A stretch of 40,849 nucleotides of DNA from Bipalium vagum (GCA_037834085.1 JBBMKC010021410.1:1-40849); one strand, 5' to 3'; numbered from the stretch's first letter, positions 3,601-40,115 are shown. The notes: generated by a model from the sequence alone, not told the origin. Program-made: numbers and translations.

Positions 3601-4065
3601 TTTATTTATTTTTTAGCTGTTAATTTTCCAAAATTTTATCAAATTATTCAAAGATCAAGCGATCTTTTGGTATTAGTTTTTAAACTAAGGAAAATGATAA
3701 TAATATATTTAAACGAGATAATTTTTCAAACTTTTTTTATTACCTTCCATTAATTATCAAAGGAGAATGTCAATTTTTTACTGATTTTTTGTAGAGGTAG
3801 CATCTCCGGGAGTATTCACTTGCCTATATACTCTGCGTCACCTAGCACCACTTTTATTGAATTAGACGCCCATCAAATTCAGCCAATAATAAGCGAGAAC
3901 AAATCACGATTCAAGGTCATTATCGGTACTGTCGATGACAGTGTGTGCGATATGGTGGCAAAGATTTTCGTCAATACTTACAATTTACCATATGTGTGCA
4001 TTTTGAAAGGCGGCATCAAAGCAGTCCACGATAAAAGGCCTGATTTGTTGGTAGTTACGCACTGA
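621..4065 (+). CDS. TBCK: TBC domain-containing protein kinase-like, C-terminal part
   Basis: Three exons, 621-1297, 1999-2401 and 3795-4065, join in frame to about 449 residues ending in TGA. The first exon is a Rab-GAP TBC domain. It has the arginine-finger segment DIPPLLRADIW and the glutamine-finger segment YTQGMDSL, plus the family string VDLPRCHSYDE. The last two exons give the rhodanese-like domain (VLIDLRLRDNFQ, then GSISGSIHLPIY), with no catalytic cysteine, as is usual in TBCK. Intron donors are GTAAAT (1298) and GTAATT (2402); acceptors are TTTAAG and TTGTAG. Vertebrate TBCK is about 890 residues with an N-terminal pseudokinase domain, which must lie upstream of the window. Family members act on Rab traffic and TOR signalling and join the FERRY endosomal complex. 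The identity is secure from the TBC plus rhodanese order; only the 5' part is missing. Confidence 0.9.
1298..1998 (+). other. TBCK intron, 701 bases
   Basis: AT-rich intron between the TBC exon and the rhodanese exon, with a GTAAAT donor and a CCTTTAAG acceptor. The join restores the family string LGEPSF (LGNSSF in vertebrates). I see no gene or repeat family inside. Confidence 0.75.
2457..2490. repeat. AAT microsatellite
   Basis: Short run of ATA/AAT triplets inside the last TBCK intron. Confidence 0.8.
2660..3300 (-). mobile_element. pogo/Tigger transposase remnant in TBCK intron
   Basis: Read on the minus strand, the segment around 3170-3020 gives LMLDNAKCHK and then FLPLNITGFLQPPNAGVNRY. 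This matches the DDE_1 (pogo/Tigger/CENP-B-like) core, where a DNAPSH motif is followed by LPPNTTSLLQPMDQGVI. Further on, around 2930-2870, comes an alpha-helical tail (EDAIYFIKFSRIQVSKFTIV, then NCRNH) like the family's C-terminal AWxxVxxxTIxNCW region. The segment between 3300 and 3170 fits the middle of the domain poorly. Several frame changes and stops show it is dead. It sits in the 1393-base last intron of TBCK in the opposite orientation and explains most of that intron's length. Confidence 0.7.
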
Positions 4066-5084: not shown

Positions 5085-6175
5085 ATGACTATTATCCAGT
5101 CTCATTTGTCAAGTTCTTGATTTGCGTTTCAAAAATGAGTAAAAACAGTGTCAAGTAATCAAATTTTGTATTAAACTTAGTGAAACTGCTACAGTAAAGT
5201 TTGAAAAATTAAACAGAGCTTGTGGTGACAAATCTTTTACAAGAGCTCAAATGTGTAGATGGTATAAAGCATTTCGGTTCAGGATAACCCTCGTTCTGGA
5301 AGGCCGTTAACATCGAAAAGTGATGAAAATGTTGGGAAAATCAGAGATTTGTTGCTAAGTGATCGACGATTGACTACAAGAATGGTAGAAAAAGAACTGA
5401 ATATGAACCATACCACAGCACATCAAATTTTGAATGAATTAAACATGAGAAATGTTTGTACAAAATTGGCTTCAAAAATTCTTACTTACTGTTCAACAGA
5501 AAGACAACAGAATGGTAATTTTTTGAGATCTCTTTGGAAAAATTGAAAGAGATACTAATTTTCTAAAATACGTTATCACCGATGCCGAATCATGAATTTT
5601 AGAGTTAAACGTTAGAATAAAGAATGGTACACTTCCAATTCACCTCATCCGAAAAAGCCAAGAATGGGAAAACCCAAAGTGAAAGCCATGCTGATTTCTT
5701 TCTTTGATTCCAATGACATTGTTCATAAAGAGTTTTGCCTACAGGACAAAGTGTAAATAAAAATTTTACCTTGTAATACTGGAAAAGAGTCATCCGCATG
5801 AGACCAGCCATCAAAGACAATTGGATGCGCCTTGCCAAACTGCCCTCTAAATTACTGAGTTTCTGATCAGAAAAAACATTCCTGTCGATCTTCAACCACT
5901 TTATTCTCCTGGCTTGAGCCCTTGTGAGTTTTCCCTGTTTCATAAGCTAAAAAGCTACCTCAAAGGATATCTTTTTGGAACAATAAAAACATAAAAGAAA
6001 ATGTTACCGACCAGCTCTTGGACATTCCAGTTTCGGATTTCCAGCGCTGCTATGAGGAGTGGGAAAAATCAAATGAAGTGGTGCGTTGCTTCCCAGGGGA
6101 AATACTTTGAAGGAGATAGAGTTCATATATAAATATATTGTAAATAAGGTGTTATCAAACCAGTCTCATTACTAA
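5085..6175 (+). mobile_element. Decayed mariner transposon
   Basis: A plus-strand mariner transposase can be followed through several frames. First comes IKFCIKLSETATVKFEKLNR (helix-turn-helix start), then SDRRLTTRMVEKELNMNHTT (second helix-turn-helix), KVKAMLISFFDSNDIVHKEF, LYSPGLSPCEF and a C-terminus ending DFQRCYEEWEK and CFPGE. A full transposase of this family has about 345 residues with a DD34D triad. Here the first motif reads ITDAES instead of ITGDET, and the third reads SPCEF instead of APCDF. Many stops and frameshifts add to that, so it is inactive. The exact ends are uncertain. The string CCAGTCTCATT occurs at 5096 and again at 6160 in the same orientation, which would be odd for inverted termini. 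Confidence 0.85.
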
Positions 6176-6947: not shown

Positions 6948-8129
6948 AGTAGAAACCTGTTTAATATCACGTCGGATAATATCATGAGCCGTTTAATATC
7001 ATGGTGTACCGAAAACCAATTGCCAACCGGCATGTAAATTTAATGTATTAAACTGTTTTATATTACTTCGGTTAATGTCAAAATACGGGATAATATCACG
7101 CAAAAAACGTGCTACAGTTTATGTATTAAAACCTGATTATATCATCTTTTTCGTATTGTTTTAATAATACATATTTGGAATAATTTTTAATTAATGAAAT
7201 TATACAAGTTTATTATCTTTTGTTAATTTATTTATCAAAATAAATTATTTTGTTAATATTTATAATTTATAATTTTATTCTTAAAATGAGTGAAAAAAGA
7301 AAACGTATAGGCATTACATATACATAATAAAAAATATTGCGCCCTGTAACAATTCGACAAAAATATCTTTTTCAGCAGTTGCAAAGAAATTTAATGTTGA
7401 TCCATCAACAGTAAGTAAGATATTTAAAAATGAGGACAAATTAGCTAAATTAGTTTAAAACGGTGGTGCTTTGGCTGTTAATTTGCCTATTAGTGGTGAA
7501 GTTTTGCTCATAAATGTGAACTAAATACCAGGGATTTAAATATTAATTATTTTTCTGCTGAAAAATGCAACAGTATAGTCTGTAAAAGATATGGTGAAAA
7601 AGTTGATGCTAAAATTTCAGTTACCAGTCAATGGTCATCTACAGTTTTAACTGAATTATTACTGAGATATAAACCAGGTGTATATAAAACACAGATGAAG
7701 CAGGAATTTACATTATACTCACTTTTAAAGAGAGTCAACTGTCTGGTGGAAAAATATCTAAGGACTGCATAACAGCGTTGATCTGTGCTAGCAAGAATGG
7801 TGAAAATCACACTCTTTTGGTGATTTGTAAATCAAAAAATCCAAGCTGTTTTCGTGATATAAATGAATTTCATATTTCTTACTATAATAATTGTATTGCA
7901 TTAATGACCTCTGACCTTTGAAAGTTGACTTCGTCAATGGAATAGGGAACATGCTTTCGATTCTATACAAAATATTTATCAGTTAGTATAAAAAAACAAA
8001 ACATTAATCTTATATCGGTTATTATCCCGAAACATGATATTAACCATTGTCCTTTTAATTTCATGACTAGTTTATTATTATTGTTTTCTGTGGAACGGAT
8101 GACATGATATATTAAGCGGGTTCGACTGT
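6948..8129 (+). mobile_element. Tigger (pogo superfamily) transposon, decayed
   Basis: Terminal inverted repeats are visible. The left end reads GTAGAAACCTGTTTAATATC; the complement of the right end reads CAGTCGAACCCGCTTAATAT. A start at 7286 (MSEKRKRIGITYT) and nearby text match the pogo helix-turn-helix. NTDEAGIYF near 7690 is the first catalytic aspartate motif, and a GKSKNPRCF-like segment follows near 7830. The element is about 1.2 kb, roughly half of a full Tigger, with many stops and with most of the C-terminal DDE half missing. Copies of ATAATATCA and its complement recur near both ends and are probably subterminal binding repeats. Confidence 0.75.
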
Positions 8130-10677: not shown

Positions 10678-11437
10678 TTATTCAGATTTTTTGTTCATTT
10701 TTCTCAACCAATCTTCCCAAAAATATTTTCTTTTTTTTCCTTTCAACCATTCTGTACAGATAGTGTCCAGATCTACTTTGTATTCGCGAGGTACCACTTT
10801 ATTACCTTTTCCCGTTATCAAAATGTAATCATCAACCTAACTTACCAAATTAAACAATTAAAATAGTTTAATGATTACTTACGGAATATTTATCCTTTTT
10901 CTGAACAAAGCAAAATTTTTTTTTATTTCTCGCCACAATGAAGCATCGTGGGTCATCTTGAGTTAGAATTTCTGAAATATTATCCGATAATTCAAAATCT
11001 TTTCCATCCAGTGATTTGCTTATAAAGAGTTGACTTTTCATGTTCCATAAAGTACAAATTACTCTATTATCAATAAAGAATTTCTCGCTTAAAAGGAAAG
11101 ATGTTTTGTCATCATAAGGATGATCCATTTCCATTTCTAATGTTCTTGTTTCCATATTAACAGAAAGAATAGATAGTTTTTGAATATTTTGTTGAAGTTT
11201 AACCTCTGCATCTTGAAGGATTTCAGTTTCCTCTTCTTCACTTTCTTCTTCTTCACTTTCCTCTTCTTCACTTTCTTCTTCTTCACTTTCCTCTTCTTCA
11301 CTTTCCTCTTCTTCACTTTCCTCTTCTTCACTTTCCTCTTCTTTGCGTTCCTCTTCTTCACCTTCATCTTCTTCAGTTTTCACATTTTCTAGAAGACAAG
11401 ACTGCTTATTAACAAACGGATCAAAATCTGATTCCAT
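10678..11437 (-). CDS. Unknown acidic protein with SEEEE repeat
   Basis: Two exons, 10883-11437 and 10678-10836, join across a 46-base intron (donor CC|GTAAGT, acceptor TTAG) to give 237 residues. The start at 11437 (MESDFDPFVNK) is the first methionine. Residues about 20-70 are a glutamate-rich run built mainly from SEEEE units. The remainder is a compact-looking domain with IDNRVICTLWNMKSQLFIS, CFIVARNKKKFCFV, VDDYILITGKGNKVVPREYK and a basic, tryptophan-rich tail (EWLKGKKRKYFWEDWLRKM). No membrane segment or signal peptide is seen. I do not recognise the family; the acidic run suggests a nuclear or nucleolar protein, but that is only inference. The clean intron and non-repetitive C-terminus argue that it is a real gene. 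Confidence 0.7.
11231..11374 (-). repeat. 15-base tandem repeat in coding sequence
   Basis: About nine copies of a unit reading CTCTTCTTCACTTTC on the plus strand encode SEEEE repeats in the gene at 10678-11437. The edge copies are degenerate and the inner ones nearly identical, as in a slipped repeat. Confidence 0.9.
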
Positions 11438-11985
11438 CTCTTGTATAAAGTGAAAATTTTATCAATTCAAATTGAATTTATGACTTTTCTCAAGTGCTCT
11501 TGAATATCTGAATTCGGTTAATAATATCATGTTATAATTTATGTTACAACCTAAAAGGTTGTATATATTGTAAGATATTTATTTATATAGTACTCATTTT
11601 TAAATAAAAATTATTAATCTGTTTTGAATTGTAAATTAATTTAGTCATTATTCAATAGTTAAAGTCAAAGTTTGGGTTATTTGTATAATTTTTATTGAAA
11701 TTAATATATTTATATTAAAAAATTATTAATTTATTATTATATCTGATTATTTCATCTCTTAAAATTAAAAAAGAATTTGACATTTAAAAATATATGTAAA
11801 TCAGAAATCATTTTCAAATTACACATTCCACTAATATTGGATTTAAATATTAATTATGGATTTAACATATTTTTCATAATTGAATTGTATTTTGACATTA
11901 AAAAAATAATAACAGAATTATTATAAAAATTACAAATTCAAAAATAAGCTAAAAACAAAAAAAATAATTATACTATAAAAAGATA
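11438..11985. other. AT-rich upstream region, no gene
   Basis: Upstream of the SEEEE-repeat gene. Only AT-rich spacer is seen. It should contain that gene's promoter, but no clear element stands out. Confidence 0.4.
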
Positions 11986-21987: not shown

Positions 21988-22934
21988 TCAAATAATTTGT
22001 TGTTGTTTTATAAAATTTTCAATCATCACATCAGTTTTTGTTCCCAGAACAGCTGCCAATCTTTGGTAGTTATATCCATAGTCCAACAATCCTCGATAGA
22101 GAAGTTGAAAATCTTTTTCAGTCCAAAAATCAACGATCTAAAATAATGATGAAGATTCAGATAATATTGATTAGTTTTTTTTACTCCATTGAACTCTGAT
22201 ATGATTATACAGTCGTCATCGTCATCGTCATCTTCAATTTCGATCAATTCTTCCACTTTTACAGCATCACGAGTTTTAAAAGAAACAATTTTTTCGAAAT
22301 CTTCTTCTGATGGAAGTGATTGCAATTTCTTTATTTGTCTTTTATATTTTGCGATTTTCCTCTTAATCTTCAACTTGTTGCGCATGTAGAAATCAAGAAT
22401 TTCGCCCATATTGCAATCTGGAAACTATTTAATTTATTAAAAAAAGATTCTTTAAGATCAATACTTCTGACAAAATTTTATTAAAGCAGCGTCTGCGATT
22501 TCTTCCATATCGTCTGTTTCCAGTAATAATTTTACTAAACTGATTTGATATTTCAATTGCATTTCCATCACATAGTCTTTTTGGTCTTTTGATACAATTA
22601 AAGGAATTTGAAGCTTTATTTATGTTATAATTGTTCTTCATTAAGAGTGATAATGCTTCTTCTTCTGAAAGGCTATTTACTCTTTTATAAAGTAACTTAA
22701 AAATATTTCATATACCTTTTTCTTTTAGCTATTAATAAATAGGATTCAACTTGGTTTTGATCAAAATCAGGTGGTGGAACCCATAAAGGAATTTCATTAT
22801 TTTCATTCTGAGTTAAAAGACTTTCAATTAACATGTCTTTGCTTTTAAACTCTGGTAAAGTAGCTAATTTATATTTATATAATAATAAATTATATAATAA
22901 GAAAATTTTAAAAATTAATACCTTCTTTCAACAT
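21988..22934 (-). CDS. ELM2-SANT-SANT protein (CoREST-like), copy 1
   Basis: Five exons (22922-22934, 22716-22863, 22465-22672, 22185-22424, 21988-22137) join in frame to 252 residues. Introns are 58, 43, 40 and 47 bases, all GT-AG. The ELM2 domain reads TLPEFKSKDMLIESL, then PLWVPPPDFDQNQVESYLLI, then SLSEEEALSLLMKNNYNINK. SANT1 ends in CFNKILSEFPDCNMGEILDF followed by YMRNKLKIKRK. A lysine-rich coil and a DDDDDDD run follow. SANT2 is IVDFWTEKDFQLLYRGLLDY, then LAAVLGTKTDVMIENF. ELM2-SANT-SANT is the order of CoREST/RCOR proteins, which bridge HDAC1/2 and the LSD1 demethylase. The protein is much shorter than animal RCOR (over 480 residues) and divergent. A paralogue lies 3.3 kb upstream of its start on the same strand. 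Other ELM2-SANT families (MTA, MIER) are less likely because they have only one SANT. Confidence 0.75.
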
Positions 22935-25900
22935 ATCGGTTATATTAAAAATTGTAATATTTAAACAACGTTACTGGTTTATAAAAATATTAATTTCTAT
23001 ATTTCTTTAAAATTTAAAATTTTAAAATTAGTGCAAATTTCATGTAACTTATGATTAATACAAAACAGGAATTTAAGTTTCCGAAAATTTAAGTATTTTT
23101 TCGGAAACATTGGTGTTAAACAGTTTAAATCATTTAATTAAATTCGACAATTTTGCTGAAAATACAATATAATATTTTTATAAAATTAAGAAAATATCAA
23201 GGTTTTAATATACATTATTTTAATTCTTTCACAGCGGATAAGTATTTCAGTCATCTTATTTTCAATTATATTTAAATATTATTATTTAAATATTATATTT
23301 TTAGATACGTAAATAATGTTTTTTTACATATATTTACTTTAATTTAATTCTTTCTTATTTAAAAATTCAATACTAATTAATTAATTTAATGGTTGTGGCT
23401 TTATTATACTCTTAAGAAGTTACATAATATATTCAAAAAATTATTATTTTTCCTTTAAAACTTCAATTTATTTAATATTTCGATTTCAAAATTCTTAATT
23501 CCAAAAAGCTATATATCACGGCTATATTTCAGTGTTAAACATTGTACTATTTTTAAAAAATAATTTACATGTTGCAGAAATCAGGGCTCAATATTATGGA
23601 AATCGTTTAAATTGTATCCATTTTCGTTTTATTCCTTCTTTTCTGTTTATTTTGTTGAAGTTTTTTAAATTTTATATACGTGCAATTCTTTTTCAAAGTA
23701 TTAAAAAATTTAGGGATCATTTAAGAACTTAAAAGTACATTATTCACAGAGATAAATGTTGGATAATAACTAAATAAGAAAAACATTTAAGAAGTCTTAA
23801 TTTTTTTAAGGGTTACATAATACTTTAAAGAAAGTTGTGTAAGGAATAAAAAAAGGAACATATAAATAAATAATTAGTTGCCAATTAAATAATTCTTAAC
23901 AATATGCCTTTTAAAAATAGAAATTGTATCATTTAGAAAAAAACAGAAATGCTGTGGTTGGTCCTAGAATGTGGGGATAAAGTAAAACTTAATAATAATA
24001 AATAAACAAAAAAATATACCAATAATAATAACAATAATAATAACCAATAGTAGTTGTGGCGTTAATAATGATAATAAAAAATAATAAATGATTTTTTTAA
24101 TAATAGTAAGATGTATTTTTAATAATAATTATGAATAATTACTTTTTGCATGATTAGTTATCAATTGATAAGATTTTTCATTTTATCTAGGTATAAAGTG
24201 ATTTACGAAAAGAAATTCACTAGGATTAATAAAATTCAATTGATTTCTCAGTTAATGGCCATCGATATCTAATAATACTGCCAAGAGAAATTATTTTCTT
24301 TGAGGTTGCATTGACTGCCAAAGTTAACAAATCACAGGAGCTGTGAACATAAAGATCTCAGTTGATTTATAGAGGCATCGGAAAAAATGACTTTAACTTT
24401 AAAAGAAGAATTGAAAATTGATTGAAATGCAAAGGATATTCATAAAAAAGATACTAGTTTAGAAATTTTCTGAAAAGAGAAAAGAAAAATATTAAAAAAA
24501 AATTTTTTTTACTGGAATCTTGCTCCGGATTACAAAGAAGATTATCTATCAATATTTTTTTCGAAGAAAAATTCAAAGTAAATTCGATTTTGCTGATAAT
24601 AAATATTGGATCATTTTTAAGTTCCCCACCAGGGGGCTATATATCTGAGAAACTGGAAAGGCTCAGCTGATATATCGGGAAGATTAAACGAAGCTAAACT
24701 GTAAGATAGTTCTATATTATTTTTTTATATTAATTTATTTATTATTTTTCTATTGTTTTCTTTAAAGTTTATTCGTTTATTATTTCAGTATAATTTTTGT
24801 TTTATTTAATTAATTGACATTTGATTTTTCAACTAACATTTTGTTTGATATATATAATTGATCGTTATTACCCAAGATCTTCAAGACATTTTTGTGACCC
24901 CTTGTTGAGTTTGGAAAACTAAACATGATCTCATATTTTTAATTCTTCCTTTTTTCATTCTGATTTTTTCAATATATACTGCGTTTCAATATCATATTTT
25001 TGAATAAATATTTTTAATAATATGTGAAATACTCTTAAATAAATGTATTCTTTCTTTGTAGTATTTTATCTTATATTAAAATTATATAAAAAATTGTGCA
25101 ACCTCTACGAATTTTTAAAACGTTTTTGTTAGTAATTAATAATAATTCATAATTTTAGAAACATATTTACCTTTATAATATCATCTAATAGGAAGCTGAA
25201 TGAGTGCCAATTTAATTAAAGAAATTTTGACAAATTTAACAAAGTACCTATTTCTAAAATGCAATTTTCCTAATTAAAATTTGATTTACAACAATCATTA
25301 CAAAATCCTTATTACATTGAGTCAGTGATAATTGCACAAAATTAATTGCAAATGGTAAGTTCAAATTCCAAATAAAGAGAATTATAAGCACAAAAAAATA
25401 CAATATTTGGTAGACAAATTGCTCATGCCCCAATTTTTCAGAATAATTCATTGACTTGGCATGGAATCTATGAAATTGTTAGCTTAATTGATTTAATAAA
25501 ACGAATAAAAAATTCTTGCGCAATCATCGTATAAACATCAGTTTAAGTTTTAAAACTTTATGAGGAGCCATAGAAATGTTCTTTTATGAATGTACCTATT
25601 TTCATTACAGTTTCTGATCTGCAAAAAAATCTAGTTGAATTAAATCATCAAATCAAAACTGAAATATATTGGTCATACTTATTCAAAATGTTTTGACCAT
25701 AATAATATTTTCATTGATTTTCATTCCATTTACTTAGAAAAATATTTTGTATTGTCTGTCTACATCTGAGCGATATCGAAGTTTAACCAATTGAAATTTT
25801 GAAAATAGTAATTTCCTTTTAAAATTCCAATCAACAAATTTTGGATAAACGAACTTATATTAAATTAATTGTCACACATTTAACTTTTCATGATTCTATA

Positions 25901-26193
25901 AGGTCAGAAAAAGCAAAATTGAAACCCTAATCGACCTCGTTTGGTAAAAATAAGCATATATTAAAAAACTGACAAACCATTGACCATTGATACAATACCG
26001 TCATAATTAAGAATGGAAAACTTTGCCATGTTTATTATTGACATGATAAATCTACAATTGAGCAGTACATGTTTTAATAACAGACACATTACTAGATATA
26101 AAATCGATGTATTACATAATATTTACAATCGGTAAATCGATCAAAAATTGAAAACATCTATTGAAAATCAAAAATGTAAATCGATTATTTTCT
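22935..26193. other. Long AT-rich interval between the paralogues
   Basis: No complete gene seen. 24000-24110 is triplet-rich. 24387-24560 on plus has MTLTLKEELKID and then NAKDIHKKDTSLEIF across breaks, which faintly resembles a pogo-type helix-turn-helix and may be a transposon scrap. 24625-24690 is a less AT-rich patch with two small hairpins. Open frames such as 23532-23732 and 25254-25451 look like chance. Confidence 0.4.
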
Positions 26194-27213
26194 CTATAGG
26201 ACGTTCTTTACATTTTGAGCGTAAAAACTTTTTACCATGTTCTCGGTCTTGTTTCCAACATACCTGGAAATCATGAGAAAATTCTCACCAAACATCCCGA
26301 GAGCTTGAAAGAAGCTGAACACTTCCTGGCGGTTCCAAATCTCGTCTGGCGGGCCACACAAATCATTGGCGGCTTTGGCCACATCAACGTAAACAACCTC
26401 ACGGTTTTCAATCATCTTAACCTCAGTATCGGACGACACGGTTCGGCTGCTTGCCACTTCTTTCAACTTGGCGACAATTTCGTCATACTGTTCTTCGGAG
26501 GGAATCTTTGACAGTTTGTTGTACTGCTTCTTGTACCGGGCCAGTCGTCTCTTGATCTTCAGCTTGTTGGACATGTAGAAGTGGAGCAGTTCTCCCATGG
26601 TGTAGTTTGGAAACTGTTATAGGAGAGTAATCGAAAAAAGTTTGGTTAATTACAACATAATTTCATAAATTTATTAAAGTCAACTTTGCTGTGAATTTGA
26701 CGGAAACACCTTTTCCGTTTCAAACTGTTTTTGCGAATATTTATCATAATTCTGCTGATTTTCTCCGCAGTTGCTACAACGTCAAGTTCAAACAGCCCAA
26801 TCCTGGGACGGTATTGTGAGATATCAGCTAGGGCTGATGAGACATCATGATCATTACATTGGAGAGCCAATAATGCCTGATCCTCTCGATAACTGTAGTC
26901 AACTTTAAAAGGAACAAAAATGAACCAACAAGTCCATACCCCATTTGTTTAAGATTATTTATATAATTATTTATTTCTACATCTCCCAATACATCAGGCT
27001 TTTTCCACAAGCATGTCTCTCTCTCTGAACTTTCTTTCTGATAATTTTCAATTAGATTAATATTTGTTATATATTGTGGTAATTTATGACAAGTGTTTTC
27101 AACAGAAAACTCTCTTTTTTCAACATTGTTAGCCTAATTTGATAAAAGTAACGCAATAACTTAATGAAATACAATAAACATACTAAGCCAGATTCTGAAG
27201 GAATTAATTTCAT
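26194..27213 (-). CDS. ELM2-SANT-SANT protein (CoREST-like), copy 2
   Basis: Four exons (27184-27213, 26940-27133, 26685-26892, 26194-26613) join in frame to 283 residues. Introns are 50, 47 and 71 bases. It starts MKLIPSESGL. ELM2 reads KLPQYITNINLIENYQ, then CLWKKPDVLGDVEINNYINN, then YREDQALLALQCNDHDVSSA. SANT1 ends CFRQIHSKFPNYTMGELLHF and YMSNKLKIKRR. A basic coil (LARYKKQYNKL) follows. SANT2 is PPDEIWNRQEVFSFFQALGM, then FLMISRYVGNKTENMVKSFY, close to the RCOR string ISDVIGNKSVVQVKNFF. The third donor (AAA|GTTGAC) is non-consensus, but the join restores a string shared with copy 1. SANT2 is not interrupted by an intron here, unlike copy 1. This region is less AT-rich than copy 1, which may reflect stronger constraint. 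The likely role is a scaffold of an HDAC corepressor complex. Confidence 0.8.
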
Positions 27214-30765: not shown

Positions 30766-31500
30766 TAACAGAAATATTAAGAGACTGTAAAATACCTGCC
30801 ATTCTTCCATGAATTATTGAAAGATTTGGTCCAGATTGATTCAAAAATTGGTTTGTTATTTCTAATTTATGATTTGTCATTGAATCAAGAATGAGAATTG
30901 ATTCTTCTCAAAAAACCCCATTAAATTTTCCATTAAAGCACTTAGACATCTAAATGTTCATTATGTCTTCATTCATCCATCATTTTATGTTAGAAGTAAT
31001 AACAAAATATGTCGAAAAATATTCATTGGTCCAGAAATACATTTGAATATATCACGTGGATTAAGTTTAGTCCAATTTGCAGAACAATGCAGAACTGTAA
31101 AACTATTTTTCTCGTTTCCTGCGGTTTTAAGGTTAATTGTTTTTCGCTAACTGAATTAACTGTACATGTTGATGGAAAATCAAATGTCATCTGTACTTCA
31201 CCCATATTAAAAATCTGTACTTTATTGTAATCATAGTTTCCCTTTCCTTATTAATTTATTAAATAAAATTACTTTTCAATTCCTTCAATTACATTTCAGT
31301 ATTTGTCCAATGTTGTACGAACTAAAATTGACAGATTGTTATGTTTCATAAATGTATGAATCCAATTTGTAGAACATTTAAAACTAGTAACACCGTTTTC
31401 GAAAACAATTTCTTTCGCCGGATATTTAAAAACAATTTTTGAAACTCAATTACTGTCTCCAAGTTAAAACAATTCTTCAATCCATGTTCAATATCAGGTT
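30766..31500 (-). mobile_element. pogo-like transposase remnant
   Basis: On the minus strand, TSFKCSTNWIHTFMKHNNLS near 31390 matches the CENP-B-type DNA-binding end (WxxxFMKRHNLS). NMGEVQMTFDFPSTCTVN near 31205 matches NMDETPVxFDMPxxxTVN; the usual first catalytic aspartate is G here. MTNHKLEITNQFLNQSG and ILQSLNISVN near 30790-30875 match the LQPLDVSVN end of the DDE_1 domain. Frameshifts and stops are frequent. This is a second pogo family, different from the Tigger at 6948. Confidence 0.75.
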
Positions 31501-32086: not shown

Positions 32087-32379
32087 TTAGGTTGATGCAA
32101 AAGAAATGTCGGTTTTTAAAAAGAAATTTTGAGTGAGCATAAGTTTTCTCATAATAGATTTTATTTATTACAATAAAATCCATTAGAATCAACACAGCGT
32201 TGCCAACAATATGGAAGTTTATTTATTCCGGAAACGTAGAATTCAGAGGCTTTTAATTGGATAAAATCGCTGAAAGTGTTTTTGGAACCGTCTTGGCTCT
32301 TGAACAGTTTCTCGCTCAAGAAGTTGTTGAGGTGCTTGAAGAAATGATAATCTGTATTTGAGAGGTCGGGTGAATATGG
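32087..32379 (-). mobile_element. mariner fragment with one terminal repeat
   Basis: The segment 32161-32379 encodes, unbroken on the minus strand, the last 72 residues of a mariner transposase. It starts at PYSPDLSNTDYHFFKHL, which carries the third catalytic aspartate, and ends GINKLPYCWQRCVDSNG with a stop a few codons later. The terminal inverted repeat TTAGGTTGATGCAAAAGAAA lies at 32087. The other end of the element and the first 270 residues are missing. It belongs to a different mariner group from the copy at 5085. Confidence 0.85.
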
Positions 32380-37693: not shown

Positions 37694-38605
37694 CAGGGTG
37701 GTCAATATGTTTCTTTTCTACTTAAAAAGTTAACTTTTTTATTTGTTGATATGCTTGTTTTAATTTATTAATTTTTAGACATTAGTTATGGGAGATTTAA
37801 AAATGAAACAATTTAAAATTCTATAGAGAACAAAAATTGTGTCATTGTTTTAGAAAATGGCCGATCAATTGTTGTCACTCGAAATTCTCCAATAGCTCCT
37901 ACTATTCGTGTTTTGTAGCCAAATTTGAGCAGTATTGGAACGCTGGAGATCGGAAGCGTGCAGCAGACCTCGTTCAGGAAGATCTACTGATCTACCATGT
38001 CGCACAATTTTTCAGATTTTAAAAAACACTTTTACATCCGAATAAAATCCAATTAGACAAAACTCCATCCTGGTGATATAATATTGCGTTTAGATTTTTT
38101 TCATAATCTCGCCGCGAATGATCAATATTTTTTGGAAAATTTACTGATAAGTGACAAGGCAAACTTTCATCTAAGTGGCTTGTAAATAAATAAAACGTCA
38201 GATTTTGGAGTACTCATAATCTCAAGACAGTGCGGCAACGTTTACTACACCCATTTCGTGTAGCTGTTTGGTGTGAGATACCCTCGCACAAAATTTATGG
38301 ATCATATTTCTTTGAAAATGCTAAACGTGAAAGTTTTGCGATAAATGGAGATCACTACAGAACCATGCTTAAAGACTTCCTCTTCCCGCGAACATCAAGA
38401 ATCCTAAGATTTGGTTTCAACAAGATGGTGCAACGGCCCACACGGCTCATAAATCAATCAAATTGTTGCACAGAGAATTTCCTTCTTTCTACAAATCTTC
38501 TTACTTGTTTTTGTTCAACTCTAGGCAAAATCTTTCCGTTAATTTTTTCATTTCTTATTCATTATAAAAAATAAAATACAATCGTTCGGTTTATATGTCA
38601 CCCTG
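37694..38605 (+). mobile_element. Tc1/mariner-superfamily element, decayed
   Basis: Ends are inverted: CAGGGTGGTCAATATG at the left, and the complement of the right end reads CAGGGTGACATATAAACC. Inside, plus-strand pieces follow the transposase order. A helix-turn-helix region lies near 37850-37990 (ENGRSIVVTRNSP). The first catalytic motif region at about 38150 reads LLISDKANFHLSGL (usually FSDEAHFHLNG). KIYGSYFFENAKRESFAING comes near 38290. KIWFQQDGATAHTAHKSIKL, with the second catalytic aspartate, comes near 38410-38470. At about 0.9 kb it is shorter than a full copy, and several frameshifts and stops make it inactive. It may be the autonomous relative of the MITE at 11986. Confidence 0.85.
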
Positions 38606-39739
38606 TTAGGTATATTTGATACCTTCAATCGATGATCTTTTAAAATTCTAATTTATACCATTTTTATTATACATTTTTTAAAAATAATAATTATTTTTAC
38701 TATTTCTATATATTATGTAGTGAGTAAAATTTAAAATATTTTAATAAGTAAAGAATTATTTATTTATCTCAGCGATTTATATTTTTGGCTACAATGATTT
38801 CTCATAAGTACATAAAGAATCTATGTATTAGGTTGGTACATAAGTTCCCGCGTTTTTTAAAATTGTCATTCTTGCTTTTTTAATATAATTTACATTAGAA
38901 AAAATTTCCAGATTTCATCTCTTTCTAACATTACCTACAAGCCAAACTTAGTCACATAAAATATCATAGAGATAAGTACTAGCAAACAAATTATAAATAT
39001 TTTCATCAGACACGAAAGTACCAAATATTAAACCAAAAATTGAAAATTCTATTAATTATATAAATTCTAATAATTGAAAAAAATCTAACACAGAAAAAAG
39101 TATTGATATAGACTCGAATTAAGACTCAACACAATAAAAATATTTTTTGAATTTTAAACGTCGGTTGGGGGAAAAATAAATAAAGTAGGAGAAACCACAG
39201 GAAACCTCAACAAGAGACCAATAGATAAACAATAGCAATGGATGTTGACACATGAACACAGTTATTATTAATGGTGTTAAGTTGAATATCGTATTGAGTT
39301 CGATAAAAATGTGATTCTGATTTTATTAGATTGATTGATTCTCTAAAAATAGTCTTCATATTATCTTAATATTTATAAAACAATCGATATTGAAAATAAT
39401 CCTTAGATTTGGCATTAATGGGACACGTGAAAATTTTCAATGAATCTTAGCATCTTTGTATTATTATTATTATATTAAATATTTAAAAAATTATTTTTCG
39501 ATGTAAAAAGACTTAAAAGTAAAAACGACAAATTGGAATTAAAAGTTCATTAATACAATTATTTAACTATAACACTGTTATGACAAGAAATTTGCATTCA
39601 TAATTTTTAACAATATTTAATCGATTATGTTAAGTTATGTACCAAATCATTTTTTTAAAAATTCTGTCTAGCAGTTTTAAAGTTATTGACATTTGAATTA
39701 AAATTACATTTTTCAAATAAAATTACACAAATCCTTTGT
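38606..39739. other. AT-rich; possible non-autonomous mariner 38828-39650
   Basis: TTAGGTTGGTACATAAGTTC at 38828 resembles a mariner terminal repeat. Near 39629-39650 the complement reads TGATTTGGTACATAACTTAA, a partial match. If these are the two ends, the interval is an 820-base element without coding content. The pairing is imperfect, so this is tentative. Confidence 0.35.
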
Positions 39740-40115
39740 TTTATCGAGCTATTTTATGCTTCGAAATCAAAGACGGATCTTTCAATGGACTTTATTAATG
39801 ACAAGCTATGCAATCATTTCGATCGAAATTCTGGGGATGTATTGGTGATGGAAAATTGCAGGTTCCATCAACGCAAAGATGTTATTAAGTTGCTGAAAGA
39901 ACGAGATATTGCTTACAGATTTCTGCGACCATACTCACATCAGCTAAAATTCGCAAATACTGTATCATCCTTTATGAAAACCATTATAGATCGGGACGAT
40001 TGATTACTCAAGTACTCATGCATAACGATATAGATTTAAGTGATTATTTTCGCAACATGAGGCGGTTTATAGAAAAACCTTGGCGAGACAATAATTTATT
40101 CAGTGTACATTTCCA
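39740..40115 (+). mobile_element. DDE_3 (IS630/Tc1-type) transposase fragment
   Basis: The plus strand reads DVLVMENCRFHQRKDVIKLL, then AYRFLRPYSHQLKFANTVSS, then DYFRNMRRFIEKPW. These follow the DDE_3 pattern LVMDNxxFH...LPPYSPxLNPIENxFS...YYRHMxRF. The second catalytic aspartate is E here and the NPIE motif reads FANT. The N-terminal half is missing. A frame change falls near 40000. A tandem repeat of about 21 bases (TATATATTTTGAATATTTTT) follows at 40130-40190. Confidence 0.75.

Follow-up and report, generated by a model that had tools for sequence, protein, structure and literature searches.

CoREST is described as a scaffold linking a deacetylase with a demethylase. The ELM2-SANT proteins MTA1 (in NuRD) and MIDEAS (in MiDAC) likewise serve as scaffolds for HDAC1/2, and they do so without an LSD1 linker. 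Within proteins of this kind, ELM2 and SANT1 hold HDAC1/2, the linker together with SANT2 holds LSD1, and SANT2 has been proposed to contact nucleosomal DNA (PMC12448893, PMC7043024). The third SANT helix is located at the inositol phosphate in HDAC1:MTA1 (PMC12448893), and RCOR1 retains the residues that bind inositol phosphate (PMC7043024). CoREST proteins with both SANT domains have been reported only from animals and choanoflagellates, and all 54 animals searched have one (PMC9400249).

Here, we describe two neighboring genes, A and B, in a 40,849-nt stretch of Bipalium vagum DNA (hereafter, the window). We give a probability of roughly 55% to the reading that they are diverged tandem CoREST paralogs, probably acting as HDAC1/2 scaffolds that are uncoupled from LSD1.

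Gene structure and surroundings

Both genes are intact and lie on the minus strand, with B upstream (coding span 27213-26194) and A downstream (22934-21988) of an AT-rich spacer that separates the two coding sequences by 3,259 bases (22935-26193). Their splicing was reconstructed manually and by script from the DNA alone. The resulting models predict proteins of 252 (A) and 283 (B) amino acids, and every predicted intron has GT-AG ends and a length of 40-71 nt (Table 1). The proposed first exons of A and B are uncertain guesses resting on an in-frame ATG. The 208-nt exon common to both genes is bordered by a phase-2 intron on one side and a phase-0 intron on the other; its acceptor in A follows AGTAAATAG, and an alternative in-frame acceptor 9 bases upstream would lengthen it to 217 nt. 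In addition, A has an extra intron immediately before SANT2 that B does not have. The first-pass annotation had proposed two same-strand genes about 3.3 kb apart, with the same two splice positions around an exon of equal 208-base length and a shared sequence motif. These points were borne out, as the frames are open, the introns are of the GT-AG type, the phases agree, and the quoted motif is literally there, as CFNKILSEFPDCNMGEILDFYMRNKLKIKR in A and CFRQIHSKFPNYTMGELLHFYMSNKLKIKR in B.

Table 1. Predicted exons of genes A and B and other features of the window
Feature	Position	Strand	Basis or remark
B, proposed first exon (uncertain)	27184..27213	-	In-frame ATG and GT donor only; without similarity support
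B exon 2: N-terminal part and ELM2-C start	26940..27133	-	RCOR1/RCOR3 alignment from the ELM2-C Trp onward
B exon 3 (208 nt): remaining ELM2-C and initial SANT1	26685..26892	-	Phase-2/phase-0 introns; length equal to that of A
B exon 4: SANT1 helix 3, shortened linker, SANT2, stop	26194..26613	-	Myb/SANT models; RCOR SANT2
A, proposed first exon (uncertain)	22922..22934	-	In-frame ATG and GT donor only
A exon 2: ELM2-C start	22716..22863	-	RCOR1 ELM2 alignment; Pfam ELM2 13.4 bits (cut-off 21.7)
A exon 3 (208 nt): remaining ELM2-C and initial SANT1	22465..22672	-	Length and intron phases equal to those of B exon 3
A exon 4: SANT1 helix 3, shortened linker with acidic run	22185..22424	-	~58% identity to B over 48 residues
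A exon 5: SANT2, stop	21988..22137	-	Pfam Myb_DNA-binding 23 bits (cut-off 24.4); RCOR SANT2
TBCK-like gene	568-1326, 1998-2402, 3754-4062	+	TBC Pfam 3.6e-36, then weak rhodanese 0.018
Mariner/IS630-type transposase-like fragment	5268-5543	+	By eye
Pogo/Tigger-like transposase fragment	7500-7918	+	DDE_1 0.0008, slightly under cut-off
196-codon open frame	10871-11458	-	Tandem EEESEEEE-type acidic repeat, then ~100 non-repetitive residues
TatD-related DNase gene, about three exons	18429-17491	-	Pfam 1.3e-28
Ig-like domain, weak match; possible exon of a ciliary or centrosomal gene	31026-31247	-	CFAP65 0.017, Cep192 0.028
Mariner/IS630-type transposase-like fragment	32164-32379	-	By eye
Mariner/IS630-type transposase-like fragment	38194-38571	+	By eye
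Mariner/IS630-type transposase-like fragment	39659-40003	+	Pfam DDE_3 1.6e-6

Elsewhere in the window, the TBCK-like gene owes its name to its domain order, and its introns are apparently several hundred bases long or more. The 196-codon open frame drew Pfam matches of the low-complexity kind only. Because A and B have short introns and a low G+C content, an orthonectid source was considered (median intron 57 bp; PMC6543705), but the seemingly much longer introns of the TBCK-like gene do not fit it; the presence of both SANT domains in A and B points to an animal.

Relationship to CoREST

When A and B were compared singly with all PDB sequences, REST corepressors 1 and 3 were the top matches (E ~4e-6 to 2e-5), and a joint A+B profile reached RCOR3 at E 1.1e-12 and RCOR1 at 8e-12. 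The same profile matched neither MTA1 nor MIDEAS in PDB at E up to 10, whereas in a control search of this database human RCOR1 as the query found both. RCOR was also the sole PDB match above noise for ELM2-C plus SANT1 alone. Profile comparison using hhalign gave 3.5e-7 for RCOR1 ELM2-SANT1 and 1.3e-7 for RCOR1 SANT2, and the value of 0.021 for MTA1 ELM2-SANT lies inside the shuffled-control range; the queries used for human RCOR1 and MTA1 agree letter for letter with the PDB chains. A search of NCBIfam returned no relevant match, and relatives of A and B were absent from viral and prokaryotic genome collections, as expected of a eukaryotic gene.

From ELM2-C onward, the domain order is that of CoREST. 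Two SANT domains follow ELM2 in both proteins, the first aligning with RCOR SANT1 and the second with RCOR SANT2, whereas MIER has a single SANT domain. In a small SANT-domain tree with very long branches, SANT2 of A and B joined RCOR SANT2. The SANT1 domains of A and B paired with each other at 100/99, and the tree, whose single MIER row is a provisional MIER1 SANT sequence, did not resolve their placement among RCOR, MTA, and MIER. Identity to RCOR is 20-34% by domain. These comparisons show A and B to be CoREST (RCOR) relatives, the best reading being that they are very diverged paralogs. Thus, the family call made previously, an ELM2-SANT protein on the RCOR side, agrees with sequence and profile searches that favor RCOR over MTA and MIDEAS. 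Since neither protein matches the REST_helical model (see below), we have filed them as CoREST-like paralogs rather than as canonical RCOR.

Divergence of the ELM2 and SANT domains

The Pfam ELM2 model scored below its cut-off in A (Table 1) and had no match in B, and the ELM2-C part aligns with RCOR. Searching the window for an upstream exon that carries the ELM2-N motif RVGxxYQA yielded chance-level matches only; 5' exons may be missing from the models of A and B, which bears on this absence. At the SANT2 position, a Pfam SANT/Myb domain fell marginally under its cut-off in both proteins, and SANT1 was matched by no Pfam model in either. As no ELM2-N motif was found and SANT1 had no Pfam match, the description of the two genes as complete ELM2-SANT-SANT genes does not stand as worded.

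Relative to RCOR, SANT1 of A and B contains ~11 extra residues. Its third helix reads FYMxNKLKIKR, compared with FYYSWKKTR in RCOR1, so that A and B retain the first Tyr and one Lys of this motif but lack the second Tyr and the Trp. Because ELM2-N was not found and the FYYxWKK helix is changed to FYMxNKL, binding of HDAC by A and B is not assured.

Relationship between A and B

BLASTP aligned 250 residues of A and B at 29% identity (E 8e-34), and their local alignment score of 303 compares with a maximum of 70 among 1000 shuffles. Together with the common introns, this upholds the initial view that A and B are related to each other. The bond between them is concentrated in SANT1 (38% identity) and the segment directly after it. 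In ELM2-C (22%) and SANT2 (24%), their likeness does not rise above that of either protein to human RCOR1 (27-29% for ELM2-C and 29-33% for SANT2). Conservation is strongest at 22281-22424 and 26470-26613 (both on the minus strand), where the consensus is FPxxxMGExLxFYMxNKLKIKRxxAxYKxQxxKLxxxPSEExxxxIV and identity amounts to 58% across 48 residues (FP through IV plus one residue). Outside SANT1 helix 3, neither RCOR nor any Pfam family offers a clear equivalent of this block.

The common 208-nt exon, the intron phases of 2 and 0, and the A-B homology mark the genes as tandem duplicates made at the DNA level. The best explanation of the intron pattern is that the duplication postdates the establishment of the introns common to A and B. 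A retroposed copy, as another origin for the pair, is ruled out by these common intron positions and phases. Differences between A and B were commonest at third codon positions in all four gap-free blocks compared (e.g., rates by codon position of 0.32/0.21/0.51 in the FP block), and this excess indicates selection on the protein sequence of both copies. The duplication cannot be dated, because third positions have nearly saturated and differ in G+C content (0.25 in A and 0.44 in B). Hence, of the "old duplication" proposed in the first-pass annotation, we retain the duplication, which the common introns support, and set aside its age.

The linker and the LSD1-binding region

From the FYxxxKx motif to the SANT2 Trp, we counted 66 residues in A and 74 in B, as opposed to 147 in human RCOR1. 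The linker of B lies in one uninterrupted exon, so no part of it is concealed in an intron. The initial impression of almost no linker was therefore right as to shortening and wrong as to near-absence, the length being about half that of RCOR1. What seems to be missing is the LSD1-binding helical region. The Pfam model for this region (PF20878, REST_helical) gave 1.3e-29 for human RCOR1 and no match for A or B up to E 10, a result that excludes a clear match and not a very weak one, as the HMMER filters discard many matches weaker than ~0.1.

In proteins as diverged as these, the missing REST_helical match could reflect drift past detection, which argues against uncoupling. A and B might then be ordinary CoREST proteins that evolve fast and have kept LSD1 binding. 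Either the binding helix would have changed past recognition or, after loss of the disordered pre-linker, its role would have passed to a basic helix that follows SANT1 immediately and reads KIAKYKRQIKKLQ in A and RLARYKKQYNKLS in B. In the RCOR1 linker, VKRQIQNIKQ is similar to this basic helix and FLSQEDVEAVS to the PSEE block, and part of the length of the RCOR linker, a pre-linker, is itself disordered and variable (PMC10721905). However, neither resemblance to the RCOR1 linker exceeds that of shuffled sequences (p 0.12-0.15), PF20878 has no match in A or B, and merely 37-45 residues are left between the PSEE block and SANT2, including a poly-Asp run in A. We consider continued LSD1 binding rather unlikely on this evidence, and it is nevertheless the alternative that survives best.

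Proposed role of A and B

As ELM2-C, SANT1, and SANT2 are retained and the LSD1 helix is undetectable, an HDAC scaffold without LSD1 is the most likely role of A and B. ELM2-C and SANT1 would hold an HDAC1/2-type deacetylase, SANT2 would touch nucleosomes, and the usual tethering of LSD1 would be missing; in consequence, deacetylation and demethylation would be uncoupled. A more specific form of this proposal, to which we give less than even odds, is that the LSD1-binding linker is gone from both tandem copies and the SANT1 helix that faces the inositol phosphate is remodeled, so that they may form a scaffold separate from LSD1 and possibly also from inositol-phosphate control. The split of roles between A and B suggested in the first-pass annotation is a hypothesis. 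The predicted structure of the last exon of B was too poor to use (mean pLDDT 39).

The very low RCOR identity (20-34%, depending on the domain) and a remodeled SANT1 common to A and B would also suit a side branch of ELM2-SANT proteins, with a standard RCOR encoded elsewhere and with A and B acting, for example, as LSD1-free competitors for HDAC or chromatin. The window holds no third copy of A/B, which counts against such a branch, and we judge it improbable. Pseudogene decay or faulty gene prediction in A, B, or both was rejected as very improbable; it would accord with the low RCOR identity, the weak domain matches, and the unsupported first exons, but not with 252 and 283 codons free of stops and frameshifts, usable GT-AG introns throughout, and third-position differences that exceed those at first and second positions in four of the four blocks.

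CoREST relatives without the LSD1-binding region, as we propose A and B to be, would offer a route to asking which CoREST functions outlast the loss of LSD1. Both proteins fall below the Pfam cut-offs for ELM2 and SANT, and surveys relying on domain cut-offs would therefore score both genes as absent. A published survey reported no RCOR in 15 animal phyla (PMC10721905), and genes as diverged as A and B could escape surveys where domain thresholds apply.

Comparison with known systems

The scaffolds of the LSD1-CoREST-HDAC1/2 complex, RCOR1, RCOR2, and RCOR3, are the best match of A and B and have the same order of ELM2-C, SANT1, and SANT2. Unlike these, A and B form a tandem gene pair; ELM2-N was not found in them and REST_helical has no match. 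In addition, their SANT1 is remodeled, with ~11 extra residues, and their linker measures 66-74 rather than 147 residues. That an invertebrate can possess multiple CoREST-type components is known from C. elegans, with RCOR-1 and SPR-1 (PMC4787770), which may be a paralog pair like A and B.

A splice form of Drosophila CoREST is unable to bind Lsd1 because of an insertion in its linker (cited in PMC9400249). The hold on LSD1 would likewise be lost through the linker in A and B, although in Drosophila the change is an insertion in one splice form and here a shortening in two genes. The LSD1-free scaffolding of HDAC1/2 by MTA1 and MIDEAS illustrates a possible mode of action for A and B, which differ from both in having a second SANT domain that matches SANT2 of RCOR.
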